From: Stigmatella erecta
GTDB lineage: Bacteria > Myxococcota > Myxococcia > Myxococcales > Myxococcaceae
DNA length: 64,000 nucleotides
Reading direction: 5' to 3'
NCBI RefSeq assembly: GCF_900111745.1
Contig: NZ_FOIJ01000025.1
Coordinates: forward strand, 1 to 64,000
Shown piece after piece: positions 19,198 through 25,475 of the stretch (position 1 is the stretch's first letter; every line of letters begins with the position of its first letter). A program made the position numbers and the translations under genes. The notes under the pieces were generated by a model, which was not told the origin of the DNA, ran no database searches, and saw nothing but the letters and a program-made list of their open reading frames with translations.

Positions 19198-19588
19198 ACT
19201 TAGACCCAAAGAGGGGGAGGACGTGGCCTCGCGGACCGCAATGTATTGAGCAGGCCGTGGCATGGCAAGGCGGCCTTGCCGCGAGGCCCTCAACCCGTGG
19301 GGCAGGGCGGCGATGGCCTACCCGGCGAAGCGGTGCTTATGGCTCGTTCGAGGTGGCCTCACGCCCGCGCCGCCCTGTGTGAAGCGTGCCTTCATGTCTG
19401 TCATTCGGGGAACAGCCGGCCAGAGGGAAATTATCCGCTCTGGCTGTGTGCTCATGCGGTGACATCCGGGAAAAAATCCCTGGTTGTTTGATTCCCTCTT
19501 TCCAGCTGGATGTGTTCGATACACTTGGCTGAGCCATGTCTCACGCAAGCAGGGTGCTGTTCCTCCACACCGGCCTGGAGTCCGTTCC

Positions 19589-22500
19589 ATGATGGGTTTC
19601 TCTGCTTCCGCCGCTCGCCTCCGGGCGCTGCGCTCCTTGCTGATGATGCTGTGTGTGGCCGTCTGTGGCGCCGCCTGCGAGCCCGCGCCCGCGCCGCGGC
19701 CCACGGCCCTCGGCTCCCGCGCGGACGGGCTGGTGGCGGGCAATGCGAACCTGCAGATCCTGCTGCTCGATTCGGCGGATCCGATCGCCGAGGGTGCGAA
19801 CTACCAGTACAAGGCCGAGGTCTTGAACCTGGGGCCCAATGTGGCCGAGCAGGTGTCCGTCACGGTGACCCTGGACACCCGGGCTTCCTTCCAGTCGTTT
19901 GATGCCCCGGGATGGGGCTGCTCCCCCTCGGGAGGGGTGCACGTGTGGACCTGCACGGTGGCGACGCTCGCCGTGAACGTCTCGCAGAGCCTCACGTTCT
20001 CCATGCAGGCCCCGTTTCAGGACGACGTGCTGCTGACCGCGAGCGCCACGATCACCTCGGCGGGGACCGACCCGGTTCCCGGCAACAACTCCGCGGTGCA
20101 GGAGACGGTCGTGGGGGAGAACGACGCTCCGGTGAACGTCGTTCCGCCGCTCCAGACGATTCTCCAGAACACGGAGCTGGTCTTCTCGTCCGCGAACAAC
20201 AAGCGCGTCGCGACCTCGGATCCGGACATCTTCGGAAGAAAGCTGCAGGTGTTGTTGCAGGTGGCCGATGGGGCCAAATGCGGCACGGTCACGCTCAGCC
20301 AGACGGCGGGCCTCTCGTTCATCTCCGGCGATGGCGTGGCGGATGTGGCCATGCGCTTCACGGGGACGCTGAGCGATGTGAACGCCGCGCTGGAGGGGCT
20401 GAAGTTCACGACGAACCCTGCCTACTCCGGCTCCGCGTCCATCATCTTCTCGGTGCTGGACCAGGGGGGCAGCGGCCTGGGCGGGAACAAGAGCGACACC
20501 GATCCCATCCGCATCACGGTCACGGCGGTGAACCACCCGCCGGAGGCCAACGACGACAGCTTCTCGGTGCTCAAGGACAGCGGCGCCACGGAGCTGGATG
20601 TGCTGGCCAACGACAGCACGGCACCGGACGTGGGCGAGACGCTGAGCATCACGGCGGTGACGCAGCCTGCGGACGGCGCGGTGACGTTCACCGCCACGCG
20701 CGTGAGCTTCACGCCCACGGCCGGCTTCGTGGGCACCGCGACGTTCACCTATACGGTGTCCGATGGGCGCGGGGGCACCGACACGGCCACCGTCACGGTC
20801 TTCGTGACCGAGACGAACCACCCGCCGGTGGCCACTGACGACGCCTTCACGGTGCCCAAGGACAGCGGTGCCACGGAGCTGAACGTGCTGGCCAACGACA
20901 CGGGCGACCCAGACGTGGGCGAGACGTTGAGCATCACGGCCGTCACCCAGCCAACCTATGGCACGGTGACGTTTACCGCCACGCGCGTGAGCTTCACGCC
21001 CGCCGCAGGCTTCGTGGGCGCCACGGCGTTCACCTATACGGTGTCCGATGGGCGCGGGGGCACAGACACGGCCACCGTCACGATCACGATCACGGACGTG
21101 AATGCTCCGCCGGTGGCCACCGACGATGCCTTCACGGTGTCCAAGGACAGCGGCGCCACGGAGCTGGACGTGCTGGCCAACGACAGCACGGCACCGGACG
21201 TGGGCGAGACGCTGAGCATCACGGCGGTGACGCAGCCTGCGGACGGCGCGGTGACGTTCACCGCCACGCGCGTGAGCTTCACGCCCACGGCCGGCTTCGT
21301 GGGCACCACGACGTTCACCTATACGGTGTCCGATGGGCGCGGGGGCACCGACACGGCCACCGTCACCGTCACCGTCGCCGAAGTGAACACTCCGCCGGTG
21401 GCCACCGACGACGCCTTCACGGTGTCCAAGGACAGCGGTGCCACGGAGCTGAACGTGCTGGCCAACGACAGCACGGCACCGGACGTGGGCGAGACGCTGA
21501 GCATCACGGCGGTGACGCAGCCTGCGGACGGCGCGGTGACGTTCACCGCCACGCGCGTGAGCTTCACGCCCACGGCCGGCTTCGTGGGCACCACGACGTT
21601 CACCTATACGGTGTCCGATGGGCGCGGGGGCACCGACACGGCCACGGTCACGGTGACGGTGGCCGAGACGAATTCCCCGCCGGTGGCCACCGACGACGCC
21701 TTCACGGTGTCCAAGGACAGCGGCGCCACGGAGCTGAACGTGCTGGCCAACGACAGCACGGCGCCGGATGTGGGCGAGACGCTGAGCATCACGGCGGTGA
21801 CGCAGCCTGCGAACGGTGCGGTGACATTCACCGCCATGCGCGTGAGCTTCACGCCCGCCGCGGGCTTCGCGGGCACCACGACGTTCACCTATACGGTGTC
21901 CGATGGACGTGGCGGGACCGATACGGCGACGGTGACGGTGACGGTGTCCGACACGAACAATCCGCCGGTGGCCAATGACGACGCCTTCACGGTGTCCAAG
22001 GACAGCGGCGCCACGGAGCTGAACGTGCTGGCCAACGACAGCACGGCGCCGGATGCGGGCGAGACGCTGAGCATCACGGCGGTGACGCAGCCTGCGAACG
22101 GCGCGGTGACGTTCACCGCCACGCGCGTGAGCTTCACGCCCGCCGCGGGCTTCGTGGGCACCACGGCGTTCACCTATACGGTGTCCGATGGAAAGGGGGG
22201 GCTGGACACGGCCACGGTCACGGTCACGGTGGCCGAGACGAACCAGCCGCCCGTGGCCCGGGATGATGCCTTCACGGTGGAGGAGAACAGCGGCGAGACG
22301 GACCTGGACGTGCTGGCCAACGACACGACGGCGCCCGACGTGGGCGAGACGCTCCGCATCATCGCGACGACTCAGCCCGCCAACGGCTCGGTCCTCTTCA
22401 CGGACACGCGGGTGAACTTCGTGCCGGTTCAGGACTTCGTGGGCACCACGGCGTTCACCTATACGGTGTCGGACGGGCGCGGGGGCACCAGCACGGCCAC

Positions 22501-22657
22501 GGTGACCGTCACGGTGACGGAGAAAGGCGAGGGCGCCACGGGGCCTGTCAACCGCGGGTCGGGCTGCTCCGCGGTGGGGAGCATGGGCCTGTTGCCCCTG
22601 CTCCTGCTGGCGGGCCTGCCGCTGCTGCTGCGCCGCCGGGAAGAGGGAAGTGCCTGA
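19589..22657 (+). CDS. Large surface protein: DUF11-like domain, seven Ig/cadherin-like repeats, MYXO-CTERM-like tail
   Basis: The protein of about 1,022 residues starts at ATG 19589 (MMGFSAS). A signal segment (LRSLLMMLCVAVCGAAC) may end in a lipoprotein-like Cys. A DUF11-type domain (GPNVAEQVSVTVTLDT) and a cadherin-like domain follow, then seven repeats of 95 residues. Each repeat begins N-x-PPVATDDAFTVSKDSG and contains LNVLANDSTAPDVGETLSIT and TFTYTVSDGRGGTDTATVTV. The tail has GSGCSAVGS, a hydrophobic span and LLLRRREE, the layout of the MYXO-CTERM sorting signal. A long extended surface adhesin or matrix protein is inferred. It is preceded by an AT-richer 290-base stretch to the sugE gene. 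Confidence 0.82.
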   Translation: MMGFSASAARLRALRSLLMMLCVAVCGAACEPAPAPRPTALGSRADGLVAGNANLQILLLDSADPIAEGANYQYKAEVLNLGPNVAEQVSVTVTLDTRASFQSFDAPGWGCSPSGGVHVWTCTVATLAVNVSQSLTFSMQAPFQDDVLLTASATITSAGTDPVPGNNSAVQETVVGENDAPVNVVPPLQTILQNTELVFSSANNKRVATSDPDIFGRKLQVLLQVADGAKCGTVTLSQTAGLSFISGDGVADVAMRFTGTLSDVNAALEGLKFTTNPAYSGSASIIFSVLDQGGSGLGGNKSDTDPIRITVTAVNHPPEANDDSFSVLKDSGATELDVLANDSTAPDVGETLSITAVTQPADGAVTFTATRVSFTPTAGFVGTATFTYTVSDGRGGTDTATVTVFVTETNHPPVATDDAFTVPKDSGATELNVLANDTGDPDVGETLSITAVTQPTYGTVTFTATRVSFTPAAGFVGATAFTYTVSDGRGGTDTATVTITITDVNAPPVATDDAFTVSKDSGATELDVLANDSTAPDVGETLSITAVTQPADGAVTFTATRVSFTPTAGFVGTTTFTYTVSDGRGGTDTATVTVTVAEVNTPPVATDDAFTVSKDSGATELNVLANDSTAPDVGETLSITAVTQPADGAVTFTATRVSFTPTAGFVGTTTFTYTVSDGRGGTDTATVTVTVAETNSPPVATDDAFTVSKDSGATELNVLANDSTAPDVGETLSITAVTQPANGAVTFTAMRVSFTPAAGFAGTTTFTYTVSDGRGGTDTATVTVTVSDTNNPPVANDDAFTVSKDSGATELNVLANDSTAPDAGETLSITAVTQPANGAVTFTATRVSFTPAAGFVGTTAFTYTVSDGKGGLDTATVTVTVAETNQPPVARDDAFTVEENSGETDLDVLANDTTAPDVGETLRIIATTQPANGSVLFTDTRVNFVPVQDFVGTTAFTYTVSDGRGGTSTATVTVTVTEKGEGATGPVNRGSGCSAVGSMGLLPLLLLAGLPLLLRRREEGSA
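20531..22525 (+). repeat. Seven in-frame tandem repeats of 285 bp
   Basis: Unit boundaries fall at 20531, 20816, 21101, 21386, 21671, 21956 and 22241. The central units are nearly identical at DNA level; units 3 and 4 share long runs without a difference. The first, second and last are more diverged. Each encodes one 95-residue Ig-like module. Confidence 0.92.
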
Positions 22658-22681: not shown

Positions 22682-24106
<1,425 letters not shown>

Positions 24107-24152
24107 TCACACGTGTTGTGCCTACAGCGTGCGACGCGCGTTAATGCTCCCC

Positions 24153-24863
24153 ATGCGCTACGCCATCTCCGGTGCCAGCCGTGGCATCGGTCTCGAATTC
24201 GTCCGGCAACTTCTCGAACGTGGCGACACCGTGGAGGCCGGCGTCCGTGCCCCGGCGGAGGCCAGGTTGCTCGCCCCGCTGGTGTACACCGTGGGGCCCC
24301 GGTTGCGGATCCACGAGCTCGATATCACCAACCAGGCCAGCGTGAAGGCGTTCGCCGCGGCGGTGAATGATGGGCCGTTGGATGTGCTCATCAACAACGC
24401 GGGCATCAGCGGCAAGTGGTGCTCGTTCATGGAGATGGATTACGAGGACATGACCAAGGTCATGGAGACCAACTCCGTGGGCCCCATGCGCCTGTCCGCC
24501 GCGCTGATGCCCGCGGTGCTCAAGGGCCCCACGCGGAAGATCATTCACCTGACGACGCGCATGGCCTCGCTCACCGAGAACACCCGCGGGGGCGTGTACG
24601 GCTTCGAGGGCGGGGCGTACGCCTACCGCATGTCCAAGGCGGCGCTGAACGTCTGCATGCGCACCATGGCGGTGGACTTCCGGGATCAAGGGCTCATCAC
24701 CGCCGCCATCAACCCGGGCTGGGTGCGCACGGAGATGGGCGGCAAGCTGGCCCCCATGCGCCCCGAGGATGCCGTGCGGGGCATGCTGCGCGTCATCGAT
24801 GACATCACCAAGGAACAGAGCGGCATGTTCCTCGACTTCCAGGGCCGCGAGGTGCCCTGGTAG
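24153..24863 (+). CDS. csgA: C-factor (CsgA) homologue, short-chain dehydrogenase
   Basis: The 236-residue SDR starts MRYAISGASRGIGLEF. Residue 10 is Arg and residue 6 is Ser in the coenzyme-binding loop, where Myxococcus CsgA has Arg10 and Thr6. The PLDVLINNAGISGKWC, YAYRMSKAALN (Tyr158, Lys162), INPGWVRTEMGG, VRGMLRVID and terminal GREVPW segments closely follow CsgA. In Myxococcus, full-length CsgA is cleaved by PopC to the 17-kDa C-signal needed for aggregation and sporulation. ATG 24144 would add three residues. The neighbouring pdxH gene strengthens the identification. Confidence 0.85.
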   Translation: MRYAISGASRGIGLEFVRQLLERGDTVEAGVRAPAEARLLAPLVYTVGPRLRIHELDITNQASVKAFAAAVNDGPLDVLINNAGISGKWCSFMEMDYEDMTKVMETNSVGPMRLSAALMPAVLKGPTRKIIHLTTRMASLTENTRGGVYGFEGGAYAYRMSKAALNVCMRTMAVDFRDQGLITAAINPGWVRTEMGGKLAPMRPEDAVRGMLRVIDDITKEQSGMFLDFQGREVPW

Positions 24864-24890
24864 GCGCAGGCCCGGAGGCACCGCGGGCGC

Positions 24891-25475
24891 TCAGGGGTAG
24901 AGCATGCCGGTGCGCCAGGCGCCGTTCTCGCGCTCGTAGACGAGCCGCTCGTGCAGGCGGCTCGGGCGGGCGTGCCAGAACTCGATGCGGCCGGGCACCA
25001 CGCGCAGGCCGGCCCAGTGGGAGGGCCGGGGCACCTGGCCCCCCGCGTACTGGTGCGTCACCGTCTCCACGCGCTCCTCCAGCAGCTCCCGGGAAGGCAG
25101 GGGCTGGCTCTGGAGGCTGGCCCAGGCTCCCACCTGGCTGCCCCGGGCGCGGCTGTGGAAGTAGGCGTCGGATTCGGCCTCGGTGACGCGCTCCACGCGC
25201 CCCTCGATGCGGATCTGCCGGTCCAGCGGGGCCCAGTAGAAGACGAGCGCGGCGAAGGGCTGGCCGAGCAGCTCCTGGCCCTTGCGGCTCGTCAGGTTGG
25301 TGAAGAAGACGAAGCCCCGGGCGTCGAACTCCTTGAGGAGCACCACGCGCGCGGAGGGGCGGCCGTCGGCGCCCACCGAGGCGACGATCATCGCGTTCGG
25401 ATCCACGGGAATGGCCTTCTTCGCCTGCTCGAACAGGGCGGCGAAGCGTTCGATGGGGTCCTGGGGCAGTTCCAT
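24891..25475 (-). CDS. pdxH: Pyridoxamine/pyridoxine 5'-phosphate oxidase (PdxH, FprA homologue)
   Basis: The 194-residue FMN enzyme has PNAMIVASVGADGRPSARVVLLKEFDARGFVFFTN, SRKGQELL, the SRARGSQVGAWAS phosphate-binding stretch and a C-terminal RLHERLVYER, all typical of PdxH. It makes pyridoxal 5'-phosphate. The start at ATG 25475 fits the family, though the N-terminus is shorter than in E. coli. It is convergent with the csgA homologue, 27 bases apart. This reproduces the csgA-fprA neighbourhood described in Myxococcus xanthus, where FprA is a PdxH-like flavoprotein. Confidence 0.9.
   Translation of the reverse strand: MELPQDPIERFAALFEQAKKAIPVDPNAMIVASVGADGRPSARVVLLKEFDARGFVFFTNLTSRKGQELLGQPFAALVFYWAPLDRQIRIEGRVERVTEAESDAYFHSRARGSQVGAWASLQSQPLPSRELLEERVETVTHQYAGGQVPRPSHWAGLRVVPGRIEFWHARPSRLHERLVYERENGAWRTGMLYP

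Follow-up and report, generated by a model that had tools for sequence, protein, structure and literature searches.

How CsgA of Myxococcus xanthus sends the C-signal is described as a matter of dispute between a p17 fragment cut by PopC and an enzyme acting on lipid in the cell (PMC11559036). In the p17 model the C-signal fragment is cut from the p25 protein by the protease PopC, and in the lipid model intact CsgA is itself a cardiolipin phospholipase (PMC11559036, PMC4880591, PMC12288465). Cardiolipin phospholipase activity has been reported for the M. xanthus protein, with a proposed release of diacylglycerol (PMC11559036, PMC12288465). Natural variation in CsgA provides a test of the enzyme and p17 models that laboratory mutants do not give. 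Four residues have figured in the mutant work: the M. xanthus csgA alleles T6A, R10A, S135T and K155R, made in the Shimkets laboratory, are said to have failed to support development in 1995, and Lee et al. reportedly found in the same year that S135T abolishes CsgA function, which makes S135T a loss-of-function test allele. A literature search that covered few subscription papers returned no paper in which any two of CsgA, S135T and K155R occur together.

The locus described here lies in a window of 64,000 nucleotides, the whole stretch of Stigmatella erecta DNA that was analyzed, from a genome of 9.21 Mb in 47 contigs. Its features are collected in Table 1. The CsgA translation begins with MRYAISGASRG, ends with GREVPW and corresponds to a p25-type protein of 25.8 kDa. 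It contains an adh_short domain (PF00106, 99.4 bits, cut-off 26.6), in which the TGxxxGxG coenzyme motif reads SGASRGIG, with Ser rather than Thr in the first position, and the YxxxK motif reads YRMSK. The MRY start recurs in every one of the 60 proteins that make up the orthologue clade defined below; a second in-frame ATG lies at 24144, three codons 5' of this conserved start. We use the name hemG for the FAD amine-oxidase-family gene as a working assumption, and we take the pdxH gene of the csgA locus to be the fprA gene of M. xanthus. A scan for promoters and terminators gave nothing clearly over shuffled sequences: there were 0 promoter-like sites, and within pdxH one terminator-like site, where shuffling yields 0.4 on average. 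Just past the hemG-like gene, window positions 19484-22657 hold a large ORF that, read by eye, contains about seven similar repeats of about 90 residues (VTQPADGAVTFTATRVSFTP...).

Table 1. Features of the csgA locus in the window (positions are those of the window)
Feature	Position	Strand	Remarks
csgA orthologue, 236-aa short-chain dehydrogenase/reductase (SDR) family protein (CsgA)	24153..24863	+	
Ser6 codon, coenzyme-binding loop	24168..24170	+	Thr in 52/52 orthologue-clade CsgA that are not of the Stigmatella group
Thr135 codon, SDR catalytic serine position	24555..24557	+	Ser in 52/52 clade CsgA outside the Stigmatella group
Seven-codon insertion, residues 145-151, core GVYGF, loop between catalytic Ser/Thr and Tyr	24585..24605	+	Register +/- ~1 codon
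Catalytic YxxxK: Tyr158 and Lys162, equivalent to Tyr151 and Lys155 of the 229-aa CsgA	24624..24638	+	
pdxH, pyridoxamine 5'-phosphate oxidase, 194 aa, convergent with csgA	24891..25475	-	TIGR00558 256.5 bits, cut-off 180
hemG-like gene of the FAD amine-oxidase family, divergent from csgA	22682..24046	-	Family search: Amino_oxidase and related FAD domains only

An earlier note on this DNA had considered a csgA orthologue likely, and not just a general SDR. The window protein was searched against 147 genomes of the class, with up to 19 candidates scored per genome. The comparison genomes include Stigmatella ashevillena NCWAL01, Archangium lansinium, Myxococcus landrumus, Pyxidicoccus parkwaysis and M. 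stipitatus, as well as G079, which is presumably S. aurantiaca DW4/3-1. Among the matches listed, the orthologue-clade relatives are full-length and share 52-98% identity with the window protein. For a tree, 104 rows (14 other SDRs in addition to 90 loci) were analyzed without column 135 and the columns of the insertion, by a short search with SH-aLRT values and no bootstrap; three general SDRs of 28-29% identity served in it solely as outgroup rows. In this short-search tree, 60 proteins including Myxococcus CsgA form one clade (SH-aLRT 93) with their own-genome paralogues outside, and the clade coincides with the hemG-csgA-pdxH locus. Within the tree the eight proteins of the Stigmatella group also form one clade (SH-aLRT 100). 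When Myxococcus CsgA (P0003) is searched against the window genome, the window gene is the best match at 283.6 bits, followed by an SDR at 61.3 bits; no other gene of this genome matches CsgA more closely, which would have spoken against the proposal. The window protein and the Myxococcus CsgA L031 are identical at 132 of 229 aligned residues.

The 60-protein clade is taken to be CsgA because residues T6, R10, S135 and K155 of a 229-residue relative fall exactly on the M. xanthus mutagenesis positions, and because M. xanthus CsgA, over its 166 C-terminal residues, matches clade members at up to 165/166. The evidence thus supports csgA orthology for the window gene, here in a species of Stigmatella, in agreement with the earlier proposal. 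Ser6 and Arg10, the coenzyme-loop residues that the note had listed as CsgA-like, are both present. The GREVPW end that it had offered as a further mark of CsgA is less telling; EVPW/ELPW-type ends are common to most of the clade, so this feature is not distinctive.

The adh_short domain matches the window genome 85 times, in part within pieces of very long reading frames, and NCBIfam returns only general SDR names, each of the 25 matches listed being below cut-off. Both facts would suit a housekeeping SDR of the ordinary kind that is beside pdxH by chance and is functionally not CsgA, but the tree, the gene order and the best-match test all favor csgA and make this explanation very improbable. 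A second CsgA-like SDR family comprises 17 rows (L081-L096 and L076) drawn from several genomes of Myxococcus, g6, Archangium, g5 and g2. Its proteins have 226-229 residues, are 41-47% identical to the window protein and carry the same motifs. Unlike window CsgA, these proteins have Ser at position 135 and form a clade of their own (SH-aLRT 99 in the 104-row tree), and the stretches fetched for all 17, two of them reaching only a short way downstream, contain neither a hemG nor a pdxH match. The family therefore also counts against a chance neighbor of pdxH.

Gene order was counted over 62 rows, namely the 60-protein clade and two g21 proteins that share its locus. Neither neighbor was found in the stretches of L072 and L074-L100, and these rows were excluded. 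The distances to the neighbors were obtained twice, and the two sets agree apart from a constant offset. All 62 relatives have the divergent hemG-like gene, which is the most constant neighbor. The convergent pdxH gene, which the earlier note had correctly recognized as reproducing the csgA-fprA neighborhood, occurs in 51 of the 62, within 160 bp of csgA in 45 and 1.5-2.6 kb further in six. In the other 11, all from genus g6 (which we take to be Corallococcus), pdxH is absent from the 180-1501 bp of downstream DNA that was fetched. The suggested check for loss of synteny thus finds the hemG-like gene kept in every row and the close pdxH in 45, and supports the proposal; in one related genus, g7, csgA itself is missing from the locus. 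Since pdxH is distant in six relatives and not in the fetched DNA of 11, its adjacency is weaker evidence for orthology than the note had assumed, and the adjacency of hemG is stronger. The note had overlooked the divergent hemG-like gene, the more constant neighbor, and also Thr135.

Several loci depart from the compact arrangement. One g6 genome has an 828-residue PGA_cap (CapA-like) family gene between csgA and pdxH (L137:4770-7256), which displaces pdxH by 2.6 kb, and pdxH lies 1.5-2.2 kb from csgA in two Archangium genomes. The deep g21 relatives L071 and L073 (47-52% identity) fall just outside the main csgA clade and share the hemG-csgA-pdxH order; the locus is therefore older than that clade.

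Active-site residues were compared in a MAFFT alignment of 90 relatives, in which the Stigmatella group consists of Stigmatella (g1, 7/7) and a sister genus (g8, 1/1). Thr135 is found in exactly eight of the 90, that is, in all seven Stigmatella proteins and the one from g8. The other 82 comprise 81 with Ser and one with Ala, the latter being L099, a distant SDR that is 31% identical and lies outside the csgA clade. Columns 6, 135 and 176 are always Thr, Ser and Leu in the 52 other clade members and always Ser, Thr and Phe in the eight, so that the site changes are confined to one well-supported clade. Among the 77 columns that are invariant in the 52, columns 122, 138 and 167 are also altered in all eight, with more than one replacement each, and ten more are altered in some. 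At position 138, Gly is replaced by Ala or Ser in the Stigmatella group, and the window protein has Ala. The changes are thus not confined to the named functional residues. Two of the three uniform replacements at invariant columns fall on the four functional residues of the mutant work; the chance figure for this, 0.006, is post hoc and is given no weight here.

Arg10, Asn107, Tyr158 and Lys162 are invariant in all 60 clade proteins. In the coenzyme pocket, Arg10 is retained and Thr6 is Ser in 8/8; in the catalytic pair, the lysine is retained as Lys162 and Ser135 is Thr in 8/8. The replacement of Ser135 leaves orthology by descent intact and weakens any claim of identical catalysis. M. xanthus CsgA itself was compared through its C-terminal part, and otherwise through the close Myxococcus relative L031. 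On this basis, the window protein resembles it in the type of locus, with a divergent hemG-like gene and convergent pdxH/fprA, in its length apart from the loop, in R10, N107 and the catalytic Tyr and Lys, and in the EVPW end. It differs in having Ser6 for Thr6, Thr135 for Ser135, Ala138 for Gly138 and seven extra residues before the Tyr.

The insertion had been estimated at about seven residues ahead of the catalytic Tyr relative to M. xanthus. The count is indeed seven, before Tyr158, in 8/8 Stigmatella-group proteins and 0/52 others of the orthologue clade. MAFFT places the insertion at residues 145-151, and 146-152 fits equally well. Its columns are blank beyond alignment-edge residues in 81 of the 82 other relatives, while L099 fills them with unrelated residues. 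Because the outgroups are without the loop, it is an insertion, lineage-specific and derived, and because the eight proteins form one clade, a single origin is the simplest account. Taken as 146-152, the inserted codons agree with the next seven at 11-13 of 21 bases and 2-3 of seven residues. A resemblance as good as this is seen in 0.4-3.9% of codon-aligned pairs and in 2-12 of 223 tandem pairs in the same gene. These figures are suggestive of a tandem duplication as the possible source of the loop. The insertion lies C-terminal to residue 64. Residues 64-236 amount to 19.0 kDa compared with 17.8 kDa for residues 64-229 of the shorter form, so that in Stigmatella one would expect a larger p17-like fragment.

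The spatial position of the insertion is taken from alignments; a single-sequence AlphaFold model of the window protein (P0001) has a mean pLDDT of only 41.9. Drosophila Sniffer (PDB 1sny) aligns with the window protein as an SDR over residues 4-236 at 95.3 bits, and its motif DGGMYAYRTSKSALN resembles EGGAYAYRMSKAALN of window CsgA. When GSIQGNTDGGMYAYR of 1sny is set against ASLTENTRGGVYGFEGGAYAYR of the window protein, Sniffer lacks the loop by motif reading, although the HMMER alignment spreads the gap otherwise. The structure 5wqm aligns to window CsgA with a seven-residue gap near the loop. Alignment of P0001 with two of the 28-29% SDRs was too poor to use. Monomeric carbonyl reductases with an insertion are reported to carry about 41 extra residues before the catalytic Tyr, which block oligomerization. 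Window CsgA is similar to these enzymes in having extra residues ahead of the Tyr, but it has seven and they have about 41.

The csgA genes of the Stigmatella group are under purifying selection, because dN/dS between the window gene and the seven other members is 0.05-0.33 by simple pairwise counting. The matched region is free of stop codons in 8/8 genes. We favor, with reasonable confidence, a functional csgA orthologue with a remodelled active site. The remodelling is placed in the ancestor of Stigmatella and g8, through Ser135 to Thr, Gly138 to Ala or Ser, Thr6 to Ser and the insertion of the seven-residue loop. We suggest that Thr135 supplies the hydroxyl that the serine once provided, in space gained from the longer loop and the accompanying changes. 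The protein most likely still binds a nicotinamide coenzyme and probably acts as an SDR-type enzyme on a lipid or other substrate at the membrane. It would also most likely be needed for C-signalling during development, as in M. xanthus. For Stigmatella CsgA, orthology, gene order, the residue changes with their confinement to one clade and the purifying selection are shown, and enzyme activity, compensation and the C-signalling function are inferred. Two considerations point the other way. Given the loss of function reported for S135T in M. xanthus, Thr could mean that activity has been lost, and the related Cystobacter/Melittangium lineage does without csgA.

A loss of activity would be in keeping with a Stigmatella CsgA that no longer performs SDR or phospholipase catalysis and is kept only as a PopC-cut protein signal, as in the p17 model, with neighboring cells reading the C-terminal fragment and Ser135 free of constraint. 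Thr135 in place of the Ser found in 52/52 other clade proteins, the altered Gly138, the longer loop and the presence of a PopC candidate with a PopD-like neighbor in the window genome would all fit. Yet Tyr158, Lys162, Asn107 and Arg10 are invariant in the eight Stigmatella-group proteins, and Thr135 is identical in 8/8, which a free column need not be. Thr can, moreover, stand in for Ser in some other SDRs. We regard this non-catalytic alternative as unlikely, and the remodelled but functional orthologue remains the preferred reading.

Beyond the orthologue itself, the larger finding is that the active site was remodelled at the level of a lineage and that csgA was lost in a sister lineage. 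The latter, Cystobacter/Melittangium (g7), is represented by four genomes (G073-G076), including C. fuscus DSM 52655 and 'Archangium primigenium' ATCC 29037, a strain assigned to Melittangium (PMC8307915). In all four (L122-L125), csgA is absent from the locus, and the hemG-like gene and pdxH follow each other in the ancestral order at distances of 50, 50, 50 and 32 bp. Because the two neighbors sit 32-50 bp apart in 4/4, csgA has been cleanly removed. The best-scoring matches of the window protein in these genomes are just 31-35% identical (among the matches listed). For Myxococcus CsgA, with every candidate scored, the best are 34-36% identical and reach at most 83.5 bits. The four g7 matches included in the 104-row tree all lie outside the csgA clade: three join another SDR family, and one pairs with a paralogue from its own genome. 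The absence is known from only four genomes, and an assembly or search artefact in a group where csgA is universal might be considered, but the hemG-pdxH junction is readable sequence between matched ends in each case, including a complete genome of 12,349,744 bp. Together with the low scores and the outside position of the best matches, this leaves an artefact with hardly any probability.

For 21 genomes (one by PopC alone), a tree built on hemG, pdxH and the PopC candidate groups g7 with csgA-bearing Archangium at 100/100, and within it at 91/92. The loss is therefore derived and requires one event. C. fuscus is described as fruiting (PMC5658505), and ATCC 29037 is reported to form obvious fruiting bodies (PMC8307915). 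A search that included few subscription papers found no paper on csgA with Melittangium or Cystobacter fuscus.

Published PopC is described as a 50.8 kDa protein that lacks a signal peptide and has its subtilisin domain at the C-terminal end, after an N-terminal part in which no domain is recognizable (PMC6434023). The candidate used here is the S8 protease at 240.7 kb in genome G118, with 475 residues, a mass of 50,894 Da and a subtilase domain at 192-462 only. PopC is presumably MXAN_0206, near the 240.7 kb position. Among 25 chosen genomes searched at E 1e-40 or better, the candidate is present at 73-89% in 20; the protein of the window genome is 81% identical to the Myxococcus one. All four csgA-less g7 genomes have it, at 73-74% identity, and it was not found at this threshold in five g2, g4 and g26 genomes of the 25. 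A PopD-like ORF adjoins the candidate in the same 20 genomes, including the window genome. For g7, either PopC would have been kept without its known substrate, or the candidate may have another role.

These observations allow a broader proposal, to which we give slightly less than even credence, that C-signalling was rewired twice among the relatives of Myxococcus. Stigmatella CsgA would work with, as its wild-type state, the S135T change that reportedly inactivates M. xanthus CsgA, tolerated through the seven-residue loop and neighboring changes. Cystobacter/Melittangium would have lost csgA once and would fruit without CsgA. In this proposal the PopC-PopD cascade is kept though csgA is deleted, and PopC would therefore have another substrate. 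Should Thr135 CsgA work in M. xanthus only when it has the loop, catalysis would be important and its change compensated; should Stigmatella CsgA work whatever its loop or catalytic residues, the fragment model would be strengthened. Fruiting in a lineage that lacks csgA and retains a PopC candidate would indicate that the pathway is separable from its supposed substrate, and development there would be driven by something else. We note that one Stigmatella genome contains a second PopC-like protease, L160 (G082:C33:96336-97271), which is 73% identical over residues 160-475.
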